The notes under the pieces are model-generated. The model ran no database searches and was not told the DNA's origin. It saw only the letters and a program-made list of their open reading frames with translations. The position numbers and the translations under genes were made by a program. This document shows positions 4,237 to 13,693 of a DNA stretch of 30,115 bases, piece by piece (within the stretch, counting starts at the first letter, position 1; each line of letters begins with the position of its first letter). The stretch comes from a virus, in IMG/VR virus record IMGVR_UViG_3300010354_000385, positions 1-30,115 of that record, one strand, 5' to 3'.

Positions 4237-4244
4237 TATTTATA
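4237..4244 (-). promoter_or_regulatory. Late promoter TATAAATA overlapping gp20 stop
   Basis: An exact TATAAATA octamer on the minus strand overlaps the gp20 stop codon and stands 25 bases before the ATG of the 54-residue gene. It would give a late transcript for the small gene, the 180-residue gene and gp21 that is independent of gp20. Confidence 0.75.
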
Positions 4245-7200
4245 TTTTTCCACCCTTGGGTGCTGGAATTTCTAATGTTGAGGTATCAATTGAAGGTTCC
4301 ATTGGAACTTCTCCACTCGCACCCTGTTGAATATCTTGTCCTTGTTCTGGAGGTAAAGGATTTCCATTTTCATCTACTGGAGCATTTGGATTAGGTAAAA
4401 TGCCCTTTGCAATCTCATCTTCAATTTGCATGTCAATTTCAATAATTTCTGAATCTGTTTGACGGAGTATTTTTTTACGAACATATTCAGTAGAATAATA
4501 TTTTCCAATATAAGGTTCAACTGTAGTTGCAAGAGTTAATCGATTAGTTAAAAGTTCTGCCTCTTTAAGTTCTGCAAAATGATTGTCATATAGGAAATCA
4601 TATTGAATATGATCAGACATTCTATCCCAATCTTCTGGGGATACAATATTTTTTAGAATAAGTTGAGTTCTAAGAATATCATTGAAGAGATTTGAAAATC
4701 TTTTTCTCAATCTTCCAACAAATTTAGAGAACATTAGTTCGTCTCTTAAAATTTCAGATGATCTACCCAGATTAAATCCATCTCCACCACCTGCAATTCT
4801 TGTCTCAGGTACACCCAATGAGCGATAAAGTTTTTTCTGGAAATATTCAATATCCGTAAGTTCACCAAGATTTTGTCCACCTGGTAATGTTGTAATTTCA
4901 GTTCCTCTTCCACCCTCTCTTCTGGGTAACCAGAAGTCTTCTAACATACTCATGAACTTACGATCATCACGAACTTCTCCAGTTGAGTTACAGGTATAAA
5001 TTCCTGCATCAAGGGCAAATGTATGATAATCATGATAGAGTTCTTCTCTATCAATGGTTAAAGTACCAACATCAATAGTTTCATCTAAAAATTCAATATT
5101 TTTAATTTTATGATTTTTGTATGCAATAGAATTCTTATAATCTTTCCAAGAATTGAATTCTAGTTTTTTGCAAACATTGATTAAATTTGTACAAGTGAAT
5201 TTGTCCAATGGATGGCAATTACCATGTTGCTTGTAATGATCAAAATGATCATCCTTAGACATTCTGGTCAAGTTCTCTGGTGTATTATTGTGACGATCAT
5301 AATTGATGTGATGAACTGTTTTCTTTACTTCATCTTCTCTCTCTTCATTATAAGTATATTCATTAAGAATGCCGTTCCCATCTTTCCAATCCGATACTAA
5401 ATGATGAACATATTTCCAAACTTTCGATTCATTTTCAAAAATTTGTGTGTATGTTGAGTTTTCATCTGCCTTTTCCCTTGAATAAAAGGGAATCATAGAG
5501 TCTCCAATTTGTAAATCTTTTGCTTCTACTTTTCCTTTATTCCAAACTGGAAACTTGTGATCTAAAGTGCAAGTAATAGTCTTATCATTGTCTAATGTAA
5601 TTCTTAGTACTTTTTCATTTCTTCTGGTAACTCCAGCCCAACTTATAATACCTGGGGCAAATTTACCAGTATTAGGGTCGCAAGAATATGTCCAAAGTCT
5701 TTCGCCTCTATTGTATTCTTCTGTAATTTGACTTAGTGTTAATGTTCTTCCGTCTAAAAGTGGAACTTTTGTGTCCATAGACAGACAGGCATCATAAACA
5801 AGTTTATTACGATAGCGACTCATCACTTCTTTGAGATACTGTTCTGCCTTTACCTTGGGTAGATTACCAACATCAATATAAAAAATACGACGCTCAGGGG
5901 CCCTTGAGTTGTGAACTACAATGCCATTGGCGACAAAGTTGTGCTTTTCGTGAGAAACTTCAATATCATAAACTTCCTCAATTTCTTTGGATTCAATTTT
6001 TTGAATTTTTTCAAATCTTGGTAGTTCATATTCACTCAGGTATAGATCCCAAGACTCAGATTCTGGCATAACACGCGCAACCTTCTCATAACCAACAATT
6101 CTAGATTGTGAAGGGTGAATTCTGTGTCTAATTTGACCTGAGCAAAGACCAATAGAAGTCCAAATCTCCTTGATGTCTTCAATAAGTTTCTCATTTTCCA
6201 ATGAAATTTCACAAGAAAATCCATTAACAAGATCTCTATAACTGCCATTGGCATCCAATAGACCTAAAATAAGTTCTTTTTTGATACTATTTGGTGAAGT
6301 AAATACCCAACTAGGAATTCTTTTGTTTTTAGAACCATTTACAAATCCCAATTTGCTCAGTAGTTCAGATGCAAGAGTATTCGATGAAGTATAGTTACTG
6401 TACTTTCTTTTGGAATTTGTTCTTCTGCAGTTTCCGAAGAATTTTTCCATTAATTTAGAATAATAAAGATTTTGTATTTCATCAACACCTTCGGCAAAAG
6501 TTACACCATATTTGTGAATAGATCCATCACCCAAAAGGAATCCAAATAATCTTGCAAATTCTTCATCGATATAATCTGGAAGATTTAGATCATTTCTGCA
6601 GAATCCAGCATACTTCTCATCAAATTCAACATCCTTTAAAATTTCAAGATTTTCTTGTAATAGAGCGACACTGGAAACTTCTAGTGACTGAGAATTATAT
6701 AAGAAATTTCTGATACTACTTTTGTTTATTTTTGTTGTCTCTGAAAGTTCTTGAATTATTTTTTCCTTATCTTTAATTTTATAAGAAGACCATACAGAAG
6801 AATCTTTTAAAATATAAGACTTCTCTCTAACTTCTGGGAATGGGGTTAGAATAGAATCTTCTTCTGGTTTGATGTAAGTTAGATGATGTCTTTTTGGATC
6901 AAGATCTTTGATTGGAACATACTTAACATCTTTGGTTACATTATCAAAAACTAGAATTGGGTGAGTATCGGTACCAACAACACTGTGGTGCTTGGAAGAA
7001 ACTTTGTATGTTTGTTTGATTCCAGTCATCCACTTATTGGATACTTGAGTCTCTACAAGTTTATCTGTTCTATTATCATATGCATAAACAGTATCACCAA
7101 CATTAATATCTTTAATATATGAATATCCCTTATTGGTTTTTACTCTTGTATTTCCAACAAGACACAGGCGATAAATTACCAATGAGTCTTCAATCATTCT

Positions 7201-7992
7201 TAATTGATTCAAAGACTTGATTGCCTTGTGTAGATATGATAAGATGGTTCCTTTATTGCGATCTACTAATCCTGAAGTGCAATAAGTAATAGTATCCTTT
7301 GCAATTTTAACTCCTTTCTTACTTCCACCAGATATTGTTCCAGATGGGAAGTTAGGTGTTGGCGTATAAATGAAATATTCTTCGATCTCTGGGAAATTAT
7401 ATTCTTGCTCAGATGAAGATGAAAATGATTTTGATGTTAAATTTAAATTTCTAAGTCCATTTGTGCCATTCCCAGGTAATTTCTTTTCCTGACGAACGTG
7501 CTTTATTTTCATTGGGTCAATATATCTTAATTCTTGAATTCCTGCCTCACGGTTTTTTTGATCAATAACTTTAAGATAAAATACCCTACCATCAACATAC
7601 CAATTTCTAAAAATTTCATGGCACTTCTTATCGAAGTCCATCATTTCTTTAATATATTTAAATTCTGATCGAATAACATCCTTTAGACGATCACTTGCAT
7701 TTAAGTTAGATAATTCAATTTCTACTGGTGAATCATAAAGATCACTTACAATTGCTTCATTTACAACGCTTTCAATGGCATTATCACATTCTGGGTGAAG
7801 TGCCATTTCCCTGTAGCGGCGAATAAGATCATATTCAGTTCTATAAACTCCTTCAATATCTACATATTGTCCATAAAAACCAGATTGAATGTAATAGTCA
7901 ACCCCGTCCTCATTATTTGGTGGAACGGGGGAAACTATAGATTTTGGTTTTTCATCATTATTTTCAATAGAAAATCCAAAAAGTTTTGCCAT
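4240..7992 (-). CDS. 20: Portal protein gp20 precursor with two inteins
   Basis: This is the T4-type portal (head-tail connector) through which DNA is packaged, and the initiator of prohead assembly. The reading frame encodes 1250 residues, but two in-frame inteins interrupt it. Exteins are residues 1-276, 696-735 and 1003-1250, which join to 564 residues, the usual size for marine gp20 (T4: 524). Rejoining restores the conserved strings VIYRL+SRAPERRIFYIDVG and NKLVYDA+STGEVRDDR. Further hallmarks follow: MSMLEDFWLPRREGGRGTEI, TTLPGGQNLG and FSNLFNDILRTQLILK. The last 45 residues are Pro/Gly/Gln-rich and probably disordered. gp20 also serves as the PCR marker gene for cyanomyophages. It lies between gp19 and the prohead genes, as expected. 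Splicing of both inteins should be needed for a working portal. Confidence 0.96.
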   Translation of the reverse strand: MAKLFGFSIENNDEKPKSIVSPVPPNNEDGVDYYIQSGFYGQYVDIEGVYRTEYDLIRRYREMALHPECDNAIESVVNEAIVSDLYDSPVEIELSNLNASDRLKDVIRSEFKYIKEMMDFDKKCHEIFRNWYVDGRVFYLKVIDQKNREAGIQELRYIDPMKIKHVRQEKKLPGNGTNGLRNLNLTSKSFSSSSEQEYNFPEIEEYFIYTPTPNFPSGTISGGSKKGVKIAKDTITYCTSGLVDRNKGTILSYLHKAIKSLNQLRMIEDSLVIYRLCLVGNTRVKTNKGYSYIKDINVGDTVYAYDNRTDKLVETQVSNKWMTGIKQTYKVSSKHHSVVGTDTHPILVFDNVTKDVKYVPIKDLDPKRHHLTYIKPEEDSILTPFPEVREKSYILKDSSVWSSYKIKDKEKIIQELSETTKINKSSIRNFLYNSQSLEVSSVALLQENLEILKDVEFDEKYAGFCRNDLNLPDYIDEEFARLFGFLLGDGSIHKYGVTFAEGVDEIQNLYYSKLMEKFFGNCRRTNSKRKYSNYTSSNTLASELLSKLGFVNGSKNKRIPSWVFTSPNSIKKELILGLLDANGSYRDLVNGFSCEISLENEKLIEDIKEIWTSIGLCSGQIRHRIHPSQSRIVGYEKVARVMPESESWDLYLSEYELPRFEKIQKIESKEIEEVYDIEVSHEKHNFVANGIVVHNSRAPERRIFYIDVGNLPKVKAEQYLKEVMSRYRNKLVYDACLSMDTKVPLLDGRTLTLSQITEEYNRGERLWTYSCDPNTGKFAPGIISWAGVTRRNEKVLRITLDNDKTITCTLDHKFPVWNKGKVEAKDLQIGDSMIPFYSREKADENSTYTQIFENESKVWKYVHHLVSDWKDGNGILNEYTYNEEREDEVKKTVHHINYDRHNNTPENLTRMSKDDHFDHYKQHGNCHPLDKFTCTNLINVCKKLEFNSWKDYKNSIAYKNHKIKNIEFLDETIDVGTLTIDREELYHDYHTFALDAGIYTCNSTGEVRDDRKFMSMLEDFWLPRREGGRGTEITTLPGGQNLGELTDIEYFQKKLYRSLGVPETRIAGGGDGFNLGRSSEILRDELMFSKFVGRLRKRFSNLFNDILRTQLILKNIVSPEDWDRMSDHIQYDFLYDNHFAELKEAELLTNRLTLATTVEPYIGKYYSTEYVRKKILRQTDSEIIEIDMQIEDEIAKGILPNPNAPVDENGNPLPPEQGQDIQQGASGEVPMEPSIDTSTLEIPAPKGGKI
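4987..5787 (-). mobile_element. Intein 2 in gp20 (HNH type, 267 residues)
   Basis: This in-frame intein occupies precursor residues 736-1002. Block A begins CLSMDTKVPLLDG after the extein YDA, with Cys1 as nucleophile. Block B is TITCTLDHKFPVW, containing the usual Thr...His. The HNH endonuclease core is VHHINYDRHNN...TPENL followed by HFDHYKQHG (His894, His895, Asn903/907, His916 of the precursor). The C-terminal part is YHTFALDAGIYTCN followed by Ser+1 of the extein. The penultimate residue is Cys1001 rather than the common His, while the terminal Asn1002 is present. All splice-critical residues except that His are intact, so splicing is plausible. It lies only 40 extein residues after intein 1 and is unrelated to it in endonuclease type, so it is a separate acquisition. 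Confidence 0.93.
5908..7164 (-). mobile_element. Intein 1 in gp20 (LAGLIDADG type, 419 residues)
   Basis: This in-frame class 1 intein occupies precursor residues 277-695. Block A is CLVGNTRVKTNKG, with Cys1 following extein VIYRL. Block B is VVGTDTHPILVF (Thr...His). The homing endonuclease has both LAGLIDADG helices: LFGFLLGDGS with acidic Asp489, and LILGLLDANGS with Asp580. A block D-like KRIPSWVF segment lies between them. Blocks F and G are EEVYDIEVSHEKHNFVANG and IVVHN, followed by Ser+1. A lysine/isoleucine-rich stretch at about 408-437 (EKIIQELSETTKINKSSIR) resembles a small helix-turn-helix that may help DNA recognition. All splice residues (Cys1, block B Thr/His, penultimate His, Asn, Ser+1) and both catalytic acids are present, so splicing and homing may both be active. 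Confidence 0.95.
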
Positions 7993-8633: not shown

Positions 8634-11042
8634 TTAAAAGTTACCGATGACTTCTTCAAAGTCAACACCAGTCTTCGTTGCAATAAAGTTCAATCCAATG
8701 TAATTAATGGATCTTGCAGGTTTAATATAAACACTTGCAATAAATTCATTACTATCAATCACGGCAGGAGTGTTATTAGTTTCATCACAAATAACAACAT
8801 AATCAAAAATACCTCGTTTCGCTTGAACATCTCTTAGGAAAGGTTCAATTGTGTTTACAAAGTTAGTTCTAGTTATTTCATCATTGAATTCAAAAAGAAC
8901 ATCTTTTGCTGCTCTTGAAATAGCATCTTCCAAATAGATGAATAAACGACGAACGTTAATTCGATCAAATGCTGAAGATCTAGCAAGTCCAGTCTTATCA
9001 CCAAATAGAATAATTCCCGCACCAGGAGAGAAAATCACTGGATTAATTCTATTTGAATAAAGTTTGTCTCTTTGAGTTTTTGTTGGATTATATGCCAATT
9101 TAACTGCATTGAGAATTGCACCTCTAGTTGTTCCTGCAGGTGAATACCATGGGAAATTATTAATGTCATTACGAGCACAAAGACCTGCAATGTCACCATT
9201 TAAAGGTACATATCTAAAAGTATTTGAAAATCTGTCATACATGTACTTATAACCACTATCAAAAATTGCATAAGATGAGGATGCAACAGATGAATAGAAG
9301 GAAACTAAATTATTTGTAATATCATCTGAAGATCTTACGGTGACTTGATTTTGTGAATATGTATCTGTAAGAGATGATCCTCTATATGGTGAAATAAATG
9401 CAATCGCATCTTTTCTTAGTTCTGCAACAGAAATCAATTTATTTGCAAGGGCCTGAGTAATTGTAATGTCATATGCAGCAGATCCCATAAGGAGAAAATC
9501 TACTGTATAATTATCAGTTGATTCAAATAGACTATATCCATCTGAAAGTTCTGAAAGATCTGCAGTTAAAGATCCAGATGTTTCAATTGAAGAACTACCA
9601 CCATAATCTTGTCCACGAGTAAGTGAATTGGTTGAAGAACCGATTGAACCAAAAATGATTCCATTAGTATCTTGATTCCAATCGTTATCTGTGGTAGGAC
9701 TGAATCCAGAAGTGTAACCAGTAGTAACAATTCCAGCAGGTTGATTCAGTGCAAAAATATATTCAGAATTAGTCTCAAGATATTTTCTCCAATAAGAAGG
9801 ATTTCCAACAGAATATTGTGCATCCTTTGCTTTAGACAGACCTAAATGTTTTTCTAAAATTGTGCCAGCATTACCTGAGATTGAACCAGTGGAATCAATT
9901 ACTACAACATGAACCTCATCAAATCTTGAATTTCTTGCTGCAGCATATTCTGTAGTTGAAGGTCTAGGTGCAAGTGAATTCCAATTAATTGATGTTGAAG
10001 TTGTTATTCCGATTGTTTGTTGGTCAAACCAATCGAGACTTGATGTATAAGAAGCATTTCCATATGAAGTTGTTGTAGTATGAATAGCAACATTTCCAGA
10101 AGATGATGAGAATGCATAAACACCAGATGGTTGATAATCTACTAAAGTTTCAGTTCCACCTGCAGATACATAACTTAAAACTTTTACATCAATTGAACTT
10201 ACACCAATACCTGTAATAATACCTTTTAAATGTCCATCCAAAACTGAAGTTGAACCAGCACCAGGATTTATTCTGCCAGCAATTGACTGAGTGACTCCAT
10301 AACCAACTTGTAGTGCTGCACTTACTGTCGATGTTGATCCAAAGTCAAAAGTAGTTGTTACAGGTGCTGAAGAAAGTGAAGTATTTGAAATTGTAATTAC
10401 TTCAGATCCAATTCCAATAACAGTTGTTCCTGAAGAGACAACTCCATTTACATCACATCTAACTTCTTGACCAAGAACAATTGATGTCGTAGTGATTCCA
10501 ATTGTATTGGCAGATCCAACAAGTATACCACTTCTATTGGAAATAGACGCTACAAAAGTAGTAACTGCACTAGTGCTAATACCATTTAAAATTTGATCTG
10601 CTTTACTATCAATAATTCCAATTCTAATTCCATTAGACCAAGATCCTGGATTTCTTGCTGAAACTACAACATCAGTTAGAGTATTTTCATCATACCCCAA
10701 TTCGTTATAATGCTCTAAACTTTTAATTTTTACAGTAGATGCAGTTCCAATAAATCCATTCGTCAGTTGACTATCATCACATCTTACAACTCTTAAAGAC
10801 CCTCCATACGCGAGATATGATGAGGCAGTTAACCAATGCTCATAATGTTTATCGACTGAATATGAATTACCGAAAGATGTTAGAAGATCATTTTCATTTT
10901 CTACCAAAGTAGGTACATCTACCGGACCCTTTGCAAAAGGTGCCACAATTGCACCCACTTTATTTGATGAAGGATTTACTCTCCCAAGTGTTAAATCAAA
11001 CTCTTTTACTACAATTCCAGGAGATGCTAAATTTAGCGGCAT
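8634..11042 (-). CDS. 18: Contractile tail sheath protein gp18
   Basis: This is the T4-type tail sheath subunit; contraction of its helical array drives the tube through the host envelope. It has 802 residues against 659 in T4. The N-terminus MPLNLASPGIVVKEFDLT matches the sheath family. The C-terminal third carries the conserved core: IAFISPYRG, GDIAGLCARNDINNFPWYSPAG, PVIFSPGAGIILFGDKT, RLFIYLEDAISRAAKDVLFEFN and a final beta region near ARSINYIGLNFIATKTG. The extra length lies in the middle (about residues 150-380), which is Ser/Thr/Gly-rich and probably a surface-exposed beta insertion. A TAGGAG ribosome-binding site lies before the ATG and an exact TATAAATA octamer 37 bases upstream, so gp18-gp19 probably start their own strong late transcript. 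Confidence 0.96.
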   Translation of the reverse strand: MPLNLASPGIVVKEFDLTLGRVNPSSNKVGAIVAPFAKGPVDVPTLVENENDLLTSFGNSYSVDKHYEHWLTASSYLAYGGSLRVVRCDDSQLTNGFIGTASTVKIKSLEHYNELGYDENTLTDVVVSARNPGSWSNGIRIGIIDSKADQILNGISTSAVTTFVASISNRSGILVGSANTIGITTTSIVLGQEVRCDVNGVVSSGTTVIGIGSEVITISNTSLSSAPVTTTFDFGSTSTVSAALQVGYGVTQSIAGRINPGAGSTSVLDGHLKGIITGIGVSSIDVKVLSYVSAGGTETLVDYQPSGVYAFSSSSGNVAIHTTTTSYGNASYTSSLDWFDQQTIGITTSTSINWNSLAPRPSTTEYAAARNSRFDEVHVVVIDSTGSISGNAGTILEKHLGLSKAKDAQYSVGNPSYWRKYLETNSEYIFALNQPAGIVTTGYTSGFSPTTDNDWNQDTNGIIFGSIGSSTNSLTRGQDYGGSSSIETSGSLTADLSELSDGYSLFESTDNYTVDFLLMGSAAYDITITQALANKLISVAELRKDAIAFISPYRGSSLTDTYSQNQVTVRSSDDITNNLVSFYSSVASSSYAIFDSGYKYMYDRFSNTFRYVPLNGDIAGLCARNDINNFPWYSPAGTTRGAILNAVKLAYNPTKTQRDKLYSNRINPVIFSPGAGIILFGDKTGLARSSAFDRINVRRLFIYLEDAISRAAKDVLFEFNDEITRTNFVNTIEPFLRDVQAKRGIFDYVVICDETNNTPAVIDSNEFIASVYIKPARSINYIGLNFIATKTGVDFEEVIGNF

Positions 11043-11107: not shown

Positions 11108-13693
11108 TTATCTATAATCCCACATATAGTTCCATTCGTGGGACATGTCCCCATATTCATCTAAATTCCAAACTTCTAATGGATGAGATTCCTCTGTCTT
11201 AGATTTTGCTAACATCCATCGATCTCCAGTCTCTCTTTCAACTGAAATTTCATTGAAATCATCTAATCCATCTGAAATAAATCCAAATGGAGACATATCC
11301 TGCTCAATCTGATTCTTCTGCTCTTCATAGATTCTTTTACGAACATCATTGTTCGTCATTTCCTTAAAGTAATCTTGTGCTACCAACCAAGAGAAGGATA
11401 CAAGACACATTGCTAAATCATCATTGCAACCTTCTTCTGCTTCAAATGAATTATGTTTTTGAGCAAATGTTGTTAATTCACTGATGATATCGAAGTCATT
11501 AGTGATAAGTTTATCATCTTCCATTAAAGTCTTAAGATTAGAACATCCTAATTTTTTAACGGATGCTGTCATTCTTACACCCAATTGAGATTTCTTTCCA
11601 CTAAATCCAGAACCTACAATTTGACCTGCACGACCTCTCATAGAGCACATGAGGAGATTATCATATTCTAAATCAAAGTGTAAAATATTTGCCACTTGAT
11701 CTCCAAGATCATTAACTTCAATTAAAACCCAGGCATTATTATATCCCTTAGCAACCTCATTAATAATGCTTGGGAATAGCATAGGTTTAATTTCATTATT
11801 TTTATACTTTGCTACGACTCTATAAGGGAAATTCGTAATGTCAAAGACAATAAATGCGGAATAATCATTATTTGTTCCTCTAGCAACATCCACTGTAATA
11901 AGATAATTGTGTTCTTCCTTTACTTCTTCGTGAACATCTAGACCGGCATTTTTCTTTATTGGTTCATCATATACGAAATTTTTTAGTTTTGCTGGGTTTA
12001 TGAGAGTATTAACTGAACCAAGAAACTCGCAAAGATGCTCTGCTCTAAACTGTTCTTCACTTGTATTAGCAATGGTTTGACGTTTCCATTCCTCATCTCT
12101 TCCAGGGACTTCAGACCAATGAACCTGAGTTGGTACGAATTCATTTCTACCTCTTTCAGCATCATGCCACATTCGGTAGAACTTATTCATACCTTTTGGC
12201 GTACTTACGATAATAACTTTTGTTGATTTTCCAGATGAAATTGTTGGATATACTGAAGCAAAGAAGTCTTCTGCAATATGATTTGGCACAAACGCAAATT
12301 CGTCTAAGAAAATAATATTAAAGGTCATACCTCTAACAGCAGACGCAGAAGTGGATGCTGCAAGAATTTTAGATCCGTTTTCTAACTCTAATGAACCTTT
12401 ATTCCATGATACAATTCCTTGTTGCATCCATTTTGGTAAGTTTTCATAAGATAATTGAAGTCTACTTAGAAGTTCTCTAGATGTTGTTGCCTTGTTTGCT
12501 AGAATTCCAATATTGACATTATCGTTGAAGATTAGATAATGTAGAAGATATGAAACTACTGTTGTGGAATTATGAGTGGGAATAAAAGTCTCTCCACATA
12601 AAAATAGATGATCATCATTGTCCACTGAAATGCATTGCATTGGTTCAGTTTCAATTTTTCGAATATCTTTAATGTAAAGTCTTTCGTGTTTTTTATAATT
12701 TAAAAGATTTCTTTGTTTTTCTAGTTTTTTTGGTAGTTTAAATACATCAAATTTATGTGCATAAAATCGAATAGTATCATACTTATCAGAAGATTCACTA
12801 ATTTGTTTATATTTTAATATGCTCTTAATACCAAGAGATGAAATCAGTTCTCTAACTTGAAGTAATAATTTTTCATCTTTTTGATGAAATTCACATATAC
12901 CGTTTAGATTTACTGAACCATTAGCGTCCATTAGACCTTGAAGAAGTTCAAGTCTTTGCTCAATAGATGAACGAAGATAATCATCTGGAATATATTTTTC
13001 TATGTCTAACTTTAAATGTGAATTGCCGCCACTTAACCAAACACCTAATGTATAAGGATCAATTGGCAAATCTTTAGTTGGAAGTTTAATTGCATCAGCA
13101 ATATTAATATAAATCGATGATGCTTTAGATGTCCCCTTTAATTTTTCAAATTTTTTAATAATTTCTTTAGTGGTTACTACCTTTTCATTATGATTCCAAT
13201 CATTATGTGATACCTTCCACAAGTGTTCACTACATGCTTTTATAATTTGACCATTATCAAATTCAATTTCATACGTATCAATCTGATGAACTTCAGACTT
13301 AGATATTACTTTTGATGGATTTCCATCTCTACCAAAAATATAATCACCAATTTTAAGATCTCCGATAGTAGTCCATCCAGTTGGTGTTGGAATAGGAGTA
13401 TCTAATGATAATTTCTTACCAACTTGACGAGGCATTAGTGCGATATTAAATCTATTTCCATGGAAATTACTAATCAATTTTTCCTGGAAAGGCCACATAT
13501 TAAAACTAACAAGACCTTCATCTACGTGTACAATTTTTATATAATTCTTCGCAAAGTAAATTGGATCATTCTTACATTTAAGAAATTCTATAACATGTTC
13601 TTCTGTCCATTCAATAGGAGTATTCGCCCTTTTTAGATTAGGATTTGATAGATATGCATCACCTACCTTTAATTGAATATCGTCAATTGCCAT
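11108..13693 (-). CDS. 17: Large terminase gp17 precursor with intein
   Basis: This is the T4-type packaging motor: an N-terminal ATPase and a C-terminal RNase H-fold nuclease that cuts concatemers and pumps DNA through gp20. The precursor has 861 residues; removing the intein (94-375) leaves 579 (T4: 610). The intein splits Walker A, whose rejoined form is MPRQVGK+STTVVSYLLHY. Walker B is NIIFLDEFAF (Asp464, Glu465) and the coupling motif STPKG is at 497-501. Nuclease acids are probably Asp602 (TVDVARG), Glu659 (IEVNDLG) and Asp758/759 (GCNDDLAM), aligning with T4 Asp401, Glu458 and Asp542. An AGAGGT ribosome-binding motif precedes the ATG; the upstream 424-residue gene ends five bases before. 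Without splicing the ATP-binding loop is broken, so packaging depends on intein removal. Confidence 0.96.
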   Translation of the reverse strand: MAIDDIQLKVGDAYLSNPNLKRANTPIEWTEEHVIEFLKCKNDPIYFAKNYIKIVHVDEGLVSFNMWPFQEKLISNFHGNRFNIALMPRQVGKKLSLDTPIPTPTGWTTIGDLKIGDYIFGRDGNPSKVISKSEVHQIDTYEIEFDNGQIIKACSEHLWKVSHNDWNHNEKVVTTKEIIKKFEKLKGTSKASSIYINIADAIKLPTKDLPIDPYTLGVWLSGGNSHLKLDIEKYIPDDYLRSSIEQRLELLQGLMDANGSVNLNGICEFHQKDEKLLLQVRELISSLGIKSILKYKQISESSDKYDTIRFYAHKFDVFKLPKKLEKQRNLLNYKKHERLYIKDIRKIETEPMQCISVDNDDHLFLCGETFIPTHNSTTVVSYLLHYLIFNDNVNIGILANKATTSRELLSRLQLSYENLPKWMQQGIVSWNKGSLELENGSKILAASTSASAVRGMTFNIIFLDEFAFVPNHIAEDFFASVYPTISSGKSTKVIIVSTPKGMNKFYRMWHDAERGRNEFVPTQVHWSEVPGRDEEWKRQTIANTSEEQFRAEHLCEFLGSVNTLINPAKLKNFVYDEPIKKNAGLDVHEEVKEEHNYLITVDVARGTNNDYSAFIVFDITNFPYRVVAKYKNNEIKPMLFPSIINEVAKGYNNAWVLIEVNDLGDQVANILHFDLEYDNLLMCSMRGRAGQIVGSGFSGKKSQLGVRMTASVKKLGCSNLKTLMEDDKLITNDFDIISELTTFAQKHNSFEAEEGCNDDLAMCLVSFSWLVAQDYFKEMTNNDVRKRIYEEQKNQIEQDMSPFGFISDGLDDFNEISVERETGDRWMLAKSKTEESHPLEVWNLDEYGDMSHEWNYMWDYR
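12569..13414 (-). mobile_element. Class 3-like mini-intein in gp17 Walker A
   Basis: This 282-residue intein (precursor 94-375) is inserted after the Walker A lysine. Its first residue is Lys94 (KLSLDTPIPTPTGW), where class 1 inteins have Cys or Ser. Block B reads IIKACSEHLWKV, with Trp159 at the position diagnostic of class 3 inteins. Block F reads MQCISVDNDDHLFL, with Cys354 at the class 3 nucleophile position. The end is FIPTHN followed by Ser376, where class 3 inteins usually have Thr. The endonuclease is decayed: the first LAGLIDADG helix is LGVWLSGGNS, lacking the acidic residue, and the second, LLQGLMDANGS (Asp256), follows only about 35 residues later, far closer than in complete enzymes. 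Homing activity is therefore probably lost while splicing may be retained. Confidence 0.93.

Follow-up and report, generated by a model that had tools for sequence, protein, structure and literature searches.

The gp20 gene and its two inteins

The window analysed here, the whole 30,115-nucleotide stretch of IMG/VR virus record IMGVR_UViG_3300010354_000385, carries on its minus strand a gene for the T4-like portal protein gp20 that is interrupted by two inteins. The features of this gene are listed below; slashes mark insertion points, and site numbers count along the window's exteins and are the same as in T4 for residues 244-345.

4240..7992, minus: gp20 portal precursor open reading frame (ORF), 1250 amino acids (aa), a frame without internal stop (Portal_T4, E=1e-174)
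7165..7992, minus: N-extein, aa 1-276 (boundary mapping and gp20 profile)
5908..7164, minus: intein 1, aa 277-695, 419 aa, LAGLIDADG type; junction YRL/CLVGN..VVHN/SRAPE, site 276/277
6523..6549, minus: intein 1 LAGLIDADG motif 1, LFGFLLGDG, catalytic Asp kept (alignment)
6244..6270, minus: intein 1 LAGLIDADG motif 2, ILGLLDANG, Asn at the Asp306 position (alignment)
5788..5907, minus: middle extein, aa 696-735, 40 aa (SRAPERRIFYIDVGNLPKVKAEQYLKEVMSRYRNKLVYDA)
4987..5787, minus: intein 2, aa 736-1002, 267 aa, HNH type; junction YDA/CLSMD..YTCN/STGEV, site 316/317
5245..5325, minus: intein 2 HNH core (VHHINYDRHNNTPENL), from HNH_3 (E=0.0024, below the Pfam cut-off) and alignment
5225..5226, minus: intein 2, junction of a 193-aa internal deletion relative to the 464-aa form of locus L007
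4240..4986, minus: C-extein, aa 1003-1250, 248 aa plus stop (boundary mapping and gp20 profile)

The exteins identify the gene. A Pfam Portal_T4 match is split into three stretches across them, PHROGs likewise assigns them to the T4-like portal, and the spliced product matches T4 gp20 in the PDB (E=5e-103). Within the precursor, Pfam Intein_splicing matches twice (E=2e-23), and the NCBIfam intein N- and C-terminal splicing regions score above cut-off. With the inteins removed (686 of 1250 codons, 55%), the joined exteins give 564 aa (64.8 kDa) that align end to end, at 86% identity, with the intein-free 563-aa gp20 of Synechococcus phage S-SRM01 (MW015081.1; from a Singapore reservoir), the closest relative with a name. 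A first-pass annotation, made from the letters of the window, had proposed a 1250-residue frame at 4240-7992, inteins of 419 and 267 aa only 40 extein residues apart, junctions RL+SRAPERR and YDA+STGEV, a 55% share of intein DNA and an uninterrupted 564-residue gp20 after their removal. The frame is placed correctly, on the minus strand; boundary mapping returned the same junctions and agrees with Pfam and NCBIfam on the inteins; and the product is collinear with S-SRM01 gp20. The gene neighbourhood (gp17, gp18, gp19, gp20, gp21, gp22 and gp23) is present, in an order identical to that of S-SRM01. Two contigs from other samples, L002 and L003, have the same gp20 structure at 99-100% identity, which makes an assembly error unlikely. 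These comparisons confirm, at the sequence level, two inteins in gp20, and the window is a genome fragment from an uncultured, T4-like virus of cyanophage type.

Both inteins have the residues of class 1. Intein 1 has C1, T65 and H68 (block B TxxH), H418-N419 and a +1 Ser277, and its AlphaFold model (mean predicted local distance difference test, pLDDT, 87) has the Hint fold and matches PI-SceI and TliVMA across the splicing and endonuclease domains, although these inteins reside in other host genes, share 14-17% identity with it, and differ at the second LAGLIDADG acid, which is Asn in intein 1. Intein 2 has C1, T74 and H77 (block B TxxH), N267 and a +1 Ser317; its model (mean pLDDT 87) has the Hint fold and matches mini-inteins. 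Its best sequence-family match is to RtcB-type inteins (NCBIfam NF052663, E=4e-30, precursor aa 735-1003), which occupy a different host gene and from which the intein 2 family differs in having no penultimate His. The two inteins had been called unrelated, and they do show no significant sequence similarity (BLASTP at chance level only, best E=0.09; profile-profile probability 4%), but both are of the Hint fold and so share a deep origin.

Intein families at neighbouring sites of gp20

Searches of IMG/VR with intein 1 and intein 2 returned 10 and 52 loci, respectively, and later 68 and 80 with alignments, the latter being the best 80 of 318 relatives. The host gene was identified with a gp20 profile, and inteins were mapped by an intein-aware profile alignment that demands Ser, Thr or Cys at +1; this aligner played no part in locating the junctions of the window and of its close relatives. 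The counts are seeded by the two inteins, and other gp20 intein families would escape them. The mapping placed 112 inteins in total, and 101 of the 112 distinct long portal ORFs had at least one; among the other 11 are truncated genes and highly divergent huge-phage-like portals with inteins that can be recognised from their motifs. Nearly all mapped relatives of both inteins sit in gp20, and the sole full-length intein 2 relative found in bacterial or archaeal genome contigs also lies within a gp20 gene.

A search for metagenomic gp20 insertions at the two sites, as the first-pass annotation had proposed, is answered by 38 inteins at 276/277 and 22 at 316/317. Others lie at 256/257 (n=5), 328/329 (n=25), 341/342 (n=4) and 353-354 (n=12), with one each at 319, 337, 338, 339, 357 and 395, some site alignments in divergent portals possibly being off by 1-2 residues. 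The mapped sites, at least nine, cluster in the stem-clip-channel-loop segment, and some divergent portals carry additional inteins upstream. In T4 gp20, residues 279-358 form the clip, between two stem stretches (255-278 and 359-377), and residues 350-359 form the channel loop; Lys342, at site 341/342, lines the DNA entrance (PMC4493910). Conservation in gp20 is 0.94 for residues 250-360 versus 0.74 elsewhere. Conserved segments are the usual location of intein sites.

Many portals hold more than one intein: at least two intein N-terminal regions occur in 38 of the 112 ORFs, at least three in six, and four in one. The three inteins of one portal (L037, 562-2805) are separated by exteins of 13 and 12 residues, while in the 2019-aa ORF of L344, which has four inteins, two stand back to back with zero extein residues between them (VVHN/CLGGD). 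Judged by these genes, this segment of gp20 is a recurrent landing zone for inteins, up to four per gene. Pairs thus recur in uncultured phages; the first-pass statement that no well-described portal pair is known agrees with our search of open-access papers, which found none.

Portal inteins are rare among near relatives. Among 80 IMG/VR loci picked solely by the 40-aa middle extein, only two, this virus and its near relative, had portal inteins. No intein-sized insertion was found among 60 sampled of 2526 GenBank phage records with gp20, and intein 1 and intein 2, used as queries against GenBank phages, had remote matches only. One of these led to an uncultured huge phage (LR756508.1, a 484 kb record; L064, 2030-6190), whose 1386-aa portal ORF, likewise T4-like, has three apparent, unannotated inteins and differs from the window in at least two of its intein sites. 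The ORF upstream of that portal (167-1948) also looks intein-bearing. At site 316/317, the +1 residue is Asn, Gln, Gly, Ala or Lys, unusable as a nucleophile, in 84 of 105 intein-free relatives; a count of Ser at residue 317 among carriers, as a marker of susceptibility, would be circular, as the aligner imposes Ser, Thr or Cys there.

To establish how the sites are related, a tree of 69 intein 2-type sequences was examined. The four site groups need 7 changes, compared to 35 when shuffled (minimum 3), and the five site-256 inteins of the intein 1 family group in a single clade. Since each main site falls near one clade, two portal-dedicated families have probably hopped between neighbouring sites. 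On the simplest reading of these relationships, each family usually moved into the same site of another virus and now and then into a neighbouring one.

A diverged virus, represented by L004 and L007 (identical across 1305 shared bases), has both inteins at the window's codons. Third-position differences between it and the window affect 63 of 419 codons in intein 1 and 25 of 267 in intein 2, versus 16 of 40 in the middle extein (Fisher test, p=3e-4 and 4e-6, respectively), and synonymous distances are 0.28 and 0.17 for the inteins versus 0.8-1.3 for the exteins. In L005, intein 1 alone shows the same pattern (0.72 versus 1.4-1.7). A single joint acquisition predicts a middle segment of 40 codons as similar as the inteins; this is not so, and the comparison indicates that the inteins have moved horizontally, each acquired separately, after the gp20 genes diverged. 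Homing is the probable means of this spread.

Endonuclease damage and predicted portal splicing

The inteins had been described as complete LAGLIDADG and HNH inteins. The types are right, but the HNH form is truncated and both endonucleases look degenerate. In the window, as in L002 and L003, motif 2 of intein 1 is DANG, whereas the remaining close relatives compared have DADG, so that the second acid of a two-acid LAGLIDADG endonuclease is replaced by Asn. In well-studied enzymes, for example PI-SceI, cutting is abolished when one acid of the pair is lost, and with Asp306Asn the endonuclease of intein 1 looks broken. Faster divergence of intein 1 on the window branch was sought and not seen (9 versus 11 amino-acid changes). 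Intein 2 is shorter by 197 aa than the 94%-identical intein of L007, through the 193-aa deletion just past the HNH core and a further 4-aa deletion upstream; given this deletion, its endonuclease looks broken as well. Inteins at site 316/317 range from 207 to 464 aa, and as both 464-aa forms and 207-227-aa mini-inteins occur there elsewhere, the window form is apparently partway through losing its endonuclease. The same codon can be seen empty, with a full-length intein, with an endonuclease-decayed one and with a mini-intein.

Some relatives match only residues 1-190 of intein 2. A split-intein reading of these loci was rejected: the second half lies about 0.4-0.6 kb downstream, and most have one open frame. 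In L057 (2359-2897), an intein 2 relative in a gp20 gene extends over two reading frames, through sequencing error or a frameshift.

We consider it very probable that gp20 was invaded by two mobile inteins whose endonucleases decayed while their splicing parts were kept, and that excision would yield a 564-aa portal. The 1250-aa precursor would be translated whole, and both inteins should then excise themselves: in intein 1 (Cys1, Asn419, +1 Ser277) and intein 2 (Cys1, Asn267, +1 Ser317), a thioester would form at Cys1, the N-extein would be transferred to Ser277 or Ser317, and the intein would be released through Asn cyclisation, leaving the stem and clip of the 564-aa product intact. The T4 portal nucleates the head, anchors the packaging motor and works as a dodecamer. 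Twelve spliced subunits would here make up the portal, each having to shed two inteins before a good ring forms, and it would follow logically that head assembly waits on splicing. Over longer times, the families would have spread between viruses via homing and rarely founded lineages at neighbouring codons of the stem-clip-channel-loop segment, and the window's inteins would now resemble fixed passengers, required to splice for head building.

Several observations weigh against this account. Splicing is deduced from the genes. Intein 2 has Cys266 in place of the penultimate His, its HNH core is still present, and the rest of the endonuclease region of intein 1 is under purifying selection (ratio of nonsynonymous to synonymous rates, dN/dS, 0.11). 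In addition, Ser, Thr or Cys at +1 of the mapped sites is partly a requirement of the aligner, and the restriction to gp20 rests, for intein 2, on the best 80 of 318 relatives. A penultimate His is common in inteins and not strictly required. It is found in 0 of 21 aligned members of the intein 2 family, which have Cys, Lys, Gln or Met there (with others in the wider family), so its absence is a family-wide trait and no sign of decay. The dN/dS of 0.11 implies that the Asp306Asn loss is recent or tolerated.

In the classical homing cycle, endonuclease loss with splicing kept marks the degeneration phase, and it is to be expected, since a non-splicing intein kills an essential gene. This bears on the idea that the inteins act as a control, with conditional splicing (by redox, temperature or time) gating the portal and hence head assembly and DNA packaging. 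Such control would fit endonucleases damaged in all three of the virus's inteins while splicing residues are kept, the third intein being in gp17 (see below), as well as the location of the sites in the clip, which in T4 binds the packaging ATPase gp17 (PMC4493910), and the penultimate Cys of intein 2 is a possible redox handle. The ordinary homing cycle, however, already predicts such loss, and near relatives are mostly intein-free (2 of 80 loci occupied); we regard conditional control as decidedly improbable. It is improbable, too, that dedicated gp20 families jumping a few codons, with portals gaining up to four inteins, have left the remaining splicing as an assembly checkpoint.

Alternatively, the inserts might persist within the mature portal as domains, or gp20 might be dead. 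Yet the catalytic residues are intact at both ends, the exteins are conserved and stop-free, the splicing region is under purifying selection (dN/dS 0.08 for intein 1 versus L004), and the inserts interrupt the domain where the protein is most conserved, all of which makes either outcome very unlikely. The window is a metagenomic contig, and inteins could in principle have been joined to gp20 by misassembly or in a chimera; the identical arrangement in two other samples, and both inteins at the same codons in the diverged L004/L007 virus, leave this a negligible probability. Invasion by two mobile inteins, followed by endonuclease decay with splicing kept, accounts best for the locus.

A third intein, known systems and neighbouring genes

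The first-pass annotation overlooked a third intein, in the neighbouring terminase gene.

11108..13693, minus: gp17 large terminase precursor, 861 aa (profile matches)
12569..13414, minus: third intein, 282 aa, class-3-like, at the gp17 Walker A motif (PRQVGK/..HN/STT), endonuclease degenerate
8634-11042, minus: gp18 tail sheath, 802 aa

The gp17 intein has a class 3 layout: there is no N-terminal nucleophile, the first residue being Lys (Gln in relatives), and block B Trp66 and block F Cys261 are invariant in five sequences. Its +1 residue is Ser rather than Thr. Both LAGLIDADG acids are lost, the motifs reading LSGG and DANG in the window and LGDG and DTDG in relatives, and the intein is about 47 aa shorter than theirs. 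The gp17 of S-SRM01 has no intein at Walker A. What most distinguishes this virus is its packaging module, with three inteins, each of a different type and each with an endonuclease that looks damaged.

P-loop inteins are common in terminases, according to Kelley et al. 2016 (PMC5050341), and phage TerL inteins, in mycobacteriophages (same source) and crAss-like phages (PMC7886860), likewise occupy several sites of one packaging protein; one crAss-like TerL holds two inteins (PMC7886860). They differ in that their target is the ATPase, with sites within its domain, and not the portal. The first-pass annotation had missed that single portal inteins were already reported in C1 mycobacteriophages, with six cases (Kelley et al. 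2016, PMC5050341). The likeness is at the level of the host protein: these are portals of another phage group and family (POG1190), and the text of that source gives single inteins and no pairs. Our search of the open-access literature, with most subscription papers outside its scope, turned up no account of inteins in gp20, of two or more inteins in one portal, or of an intein family dedicated to portals and occupying neighbouring sites.

The gp20 families offer a compact one-gene system for the whole intein life cycle, including movement to neighbouring sites, and S-SRM01, which is cultured, sequenced and has empty sites in a gp20 of 86% identity, is a possible recipient for tests. The gene is also a standard marker of cyanophage diversity. 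Intein 2 lies between the CPS1 and CPS8 primer sites, giving an amplicon of about 1.4 kb versus about 0.6 kb, and PCR surveys with this pair would tend to overlook intein-bearing gp20; the primers also have 3 and 4 mismatches to this virus.

The 802-aa gp18 tail sheath of the window exceeds the 725 aa of that of S-SRM01. The latter protein, recorded as a terminase, was considered as a possible intein-bearing gp17 and ruled out, being a mislabelled tail sheath; in MW015081.1 (L066, 2717-6678), the GenBank labels for terminase large subunit and tail sheath are apparently swapped.

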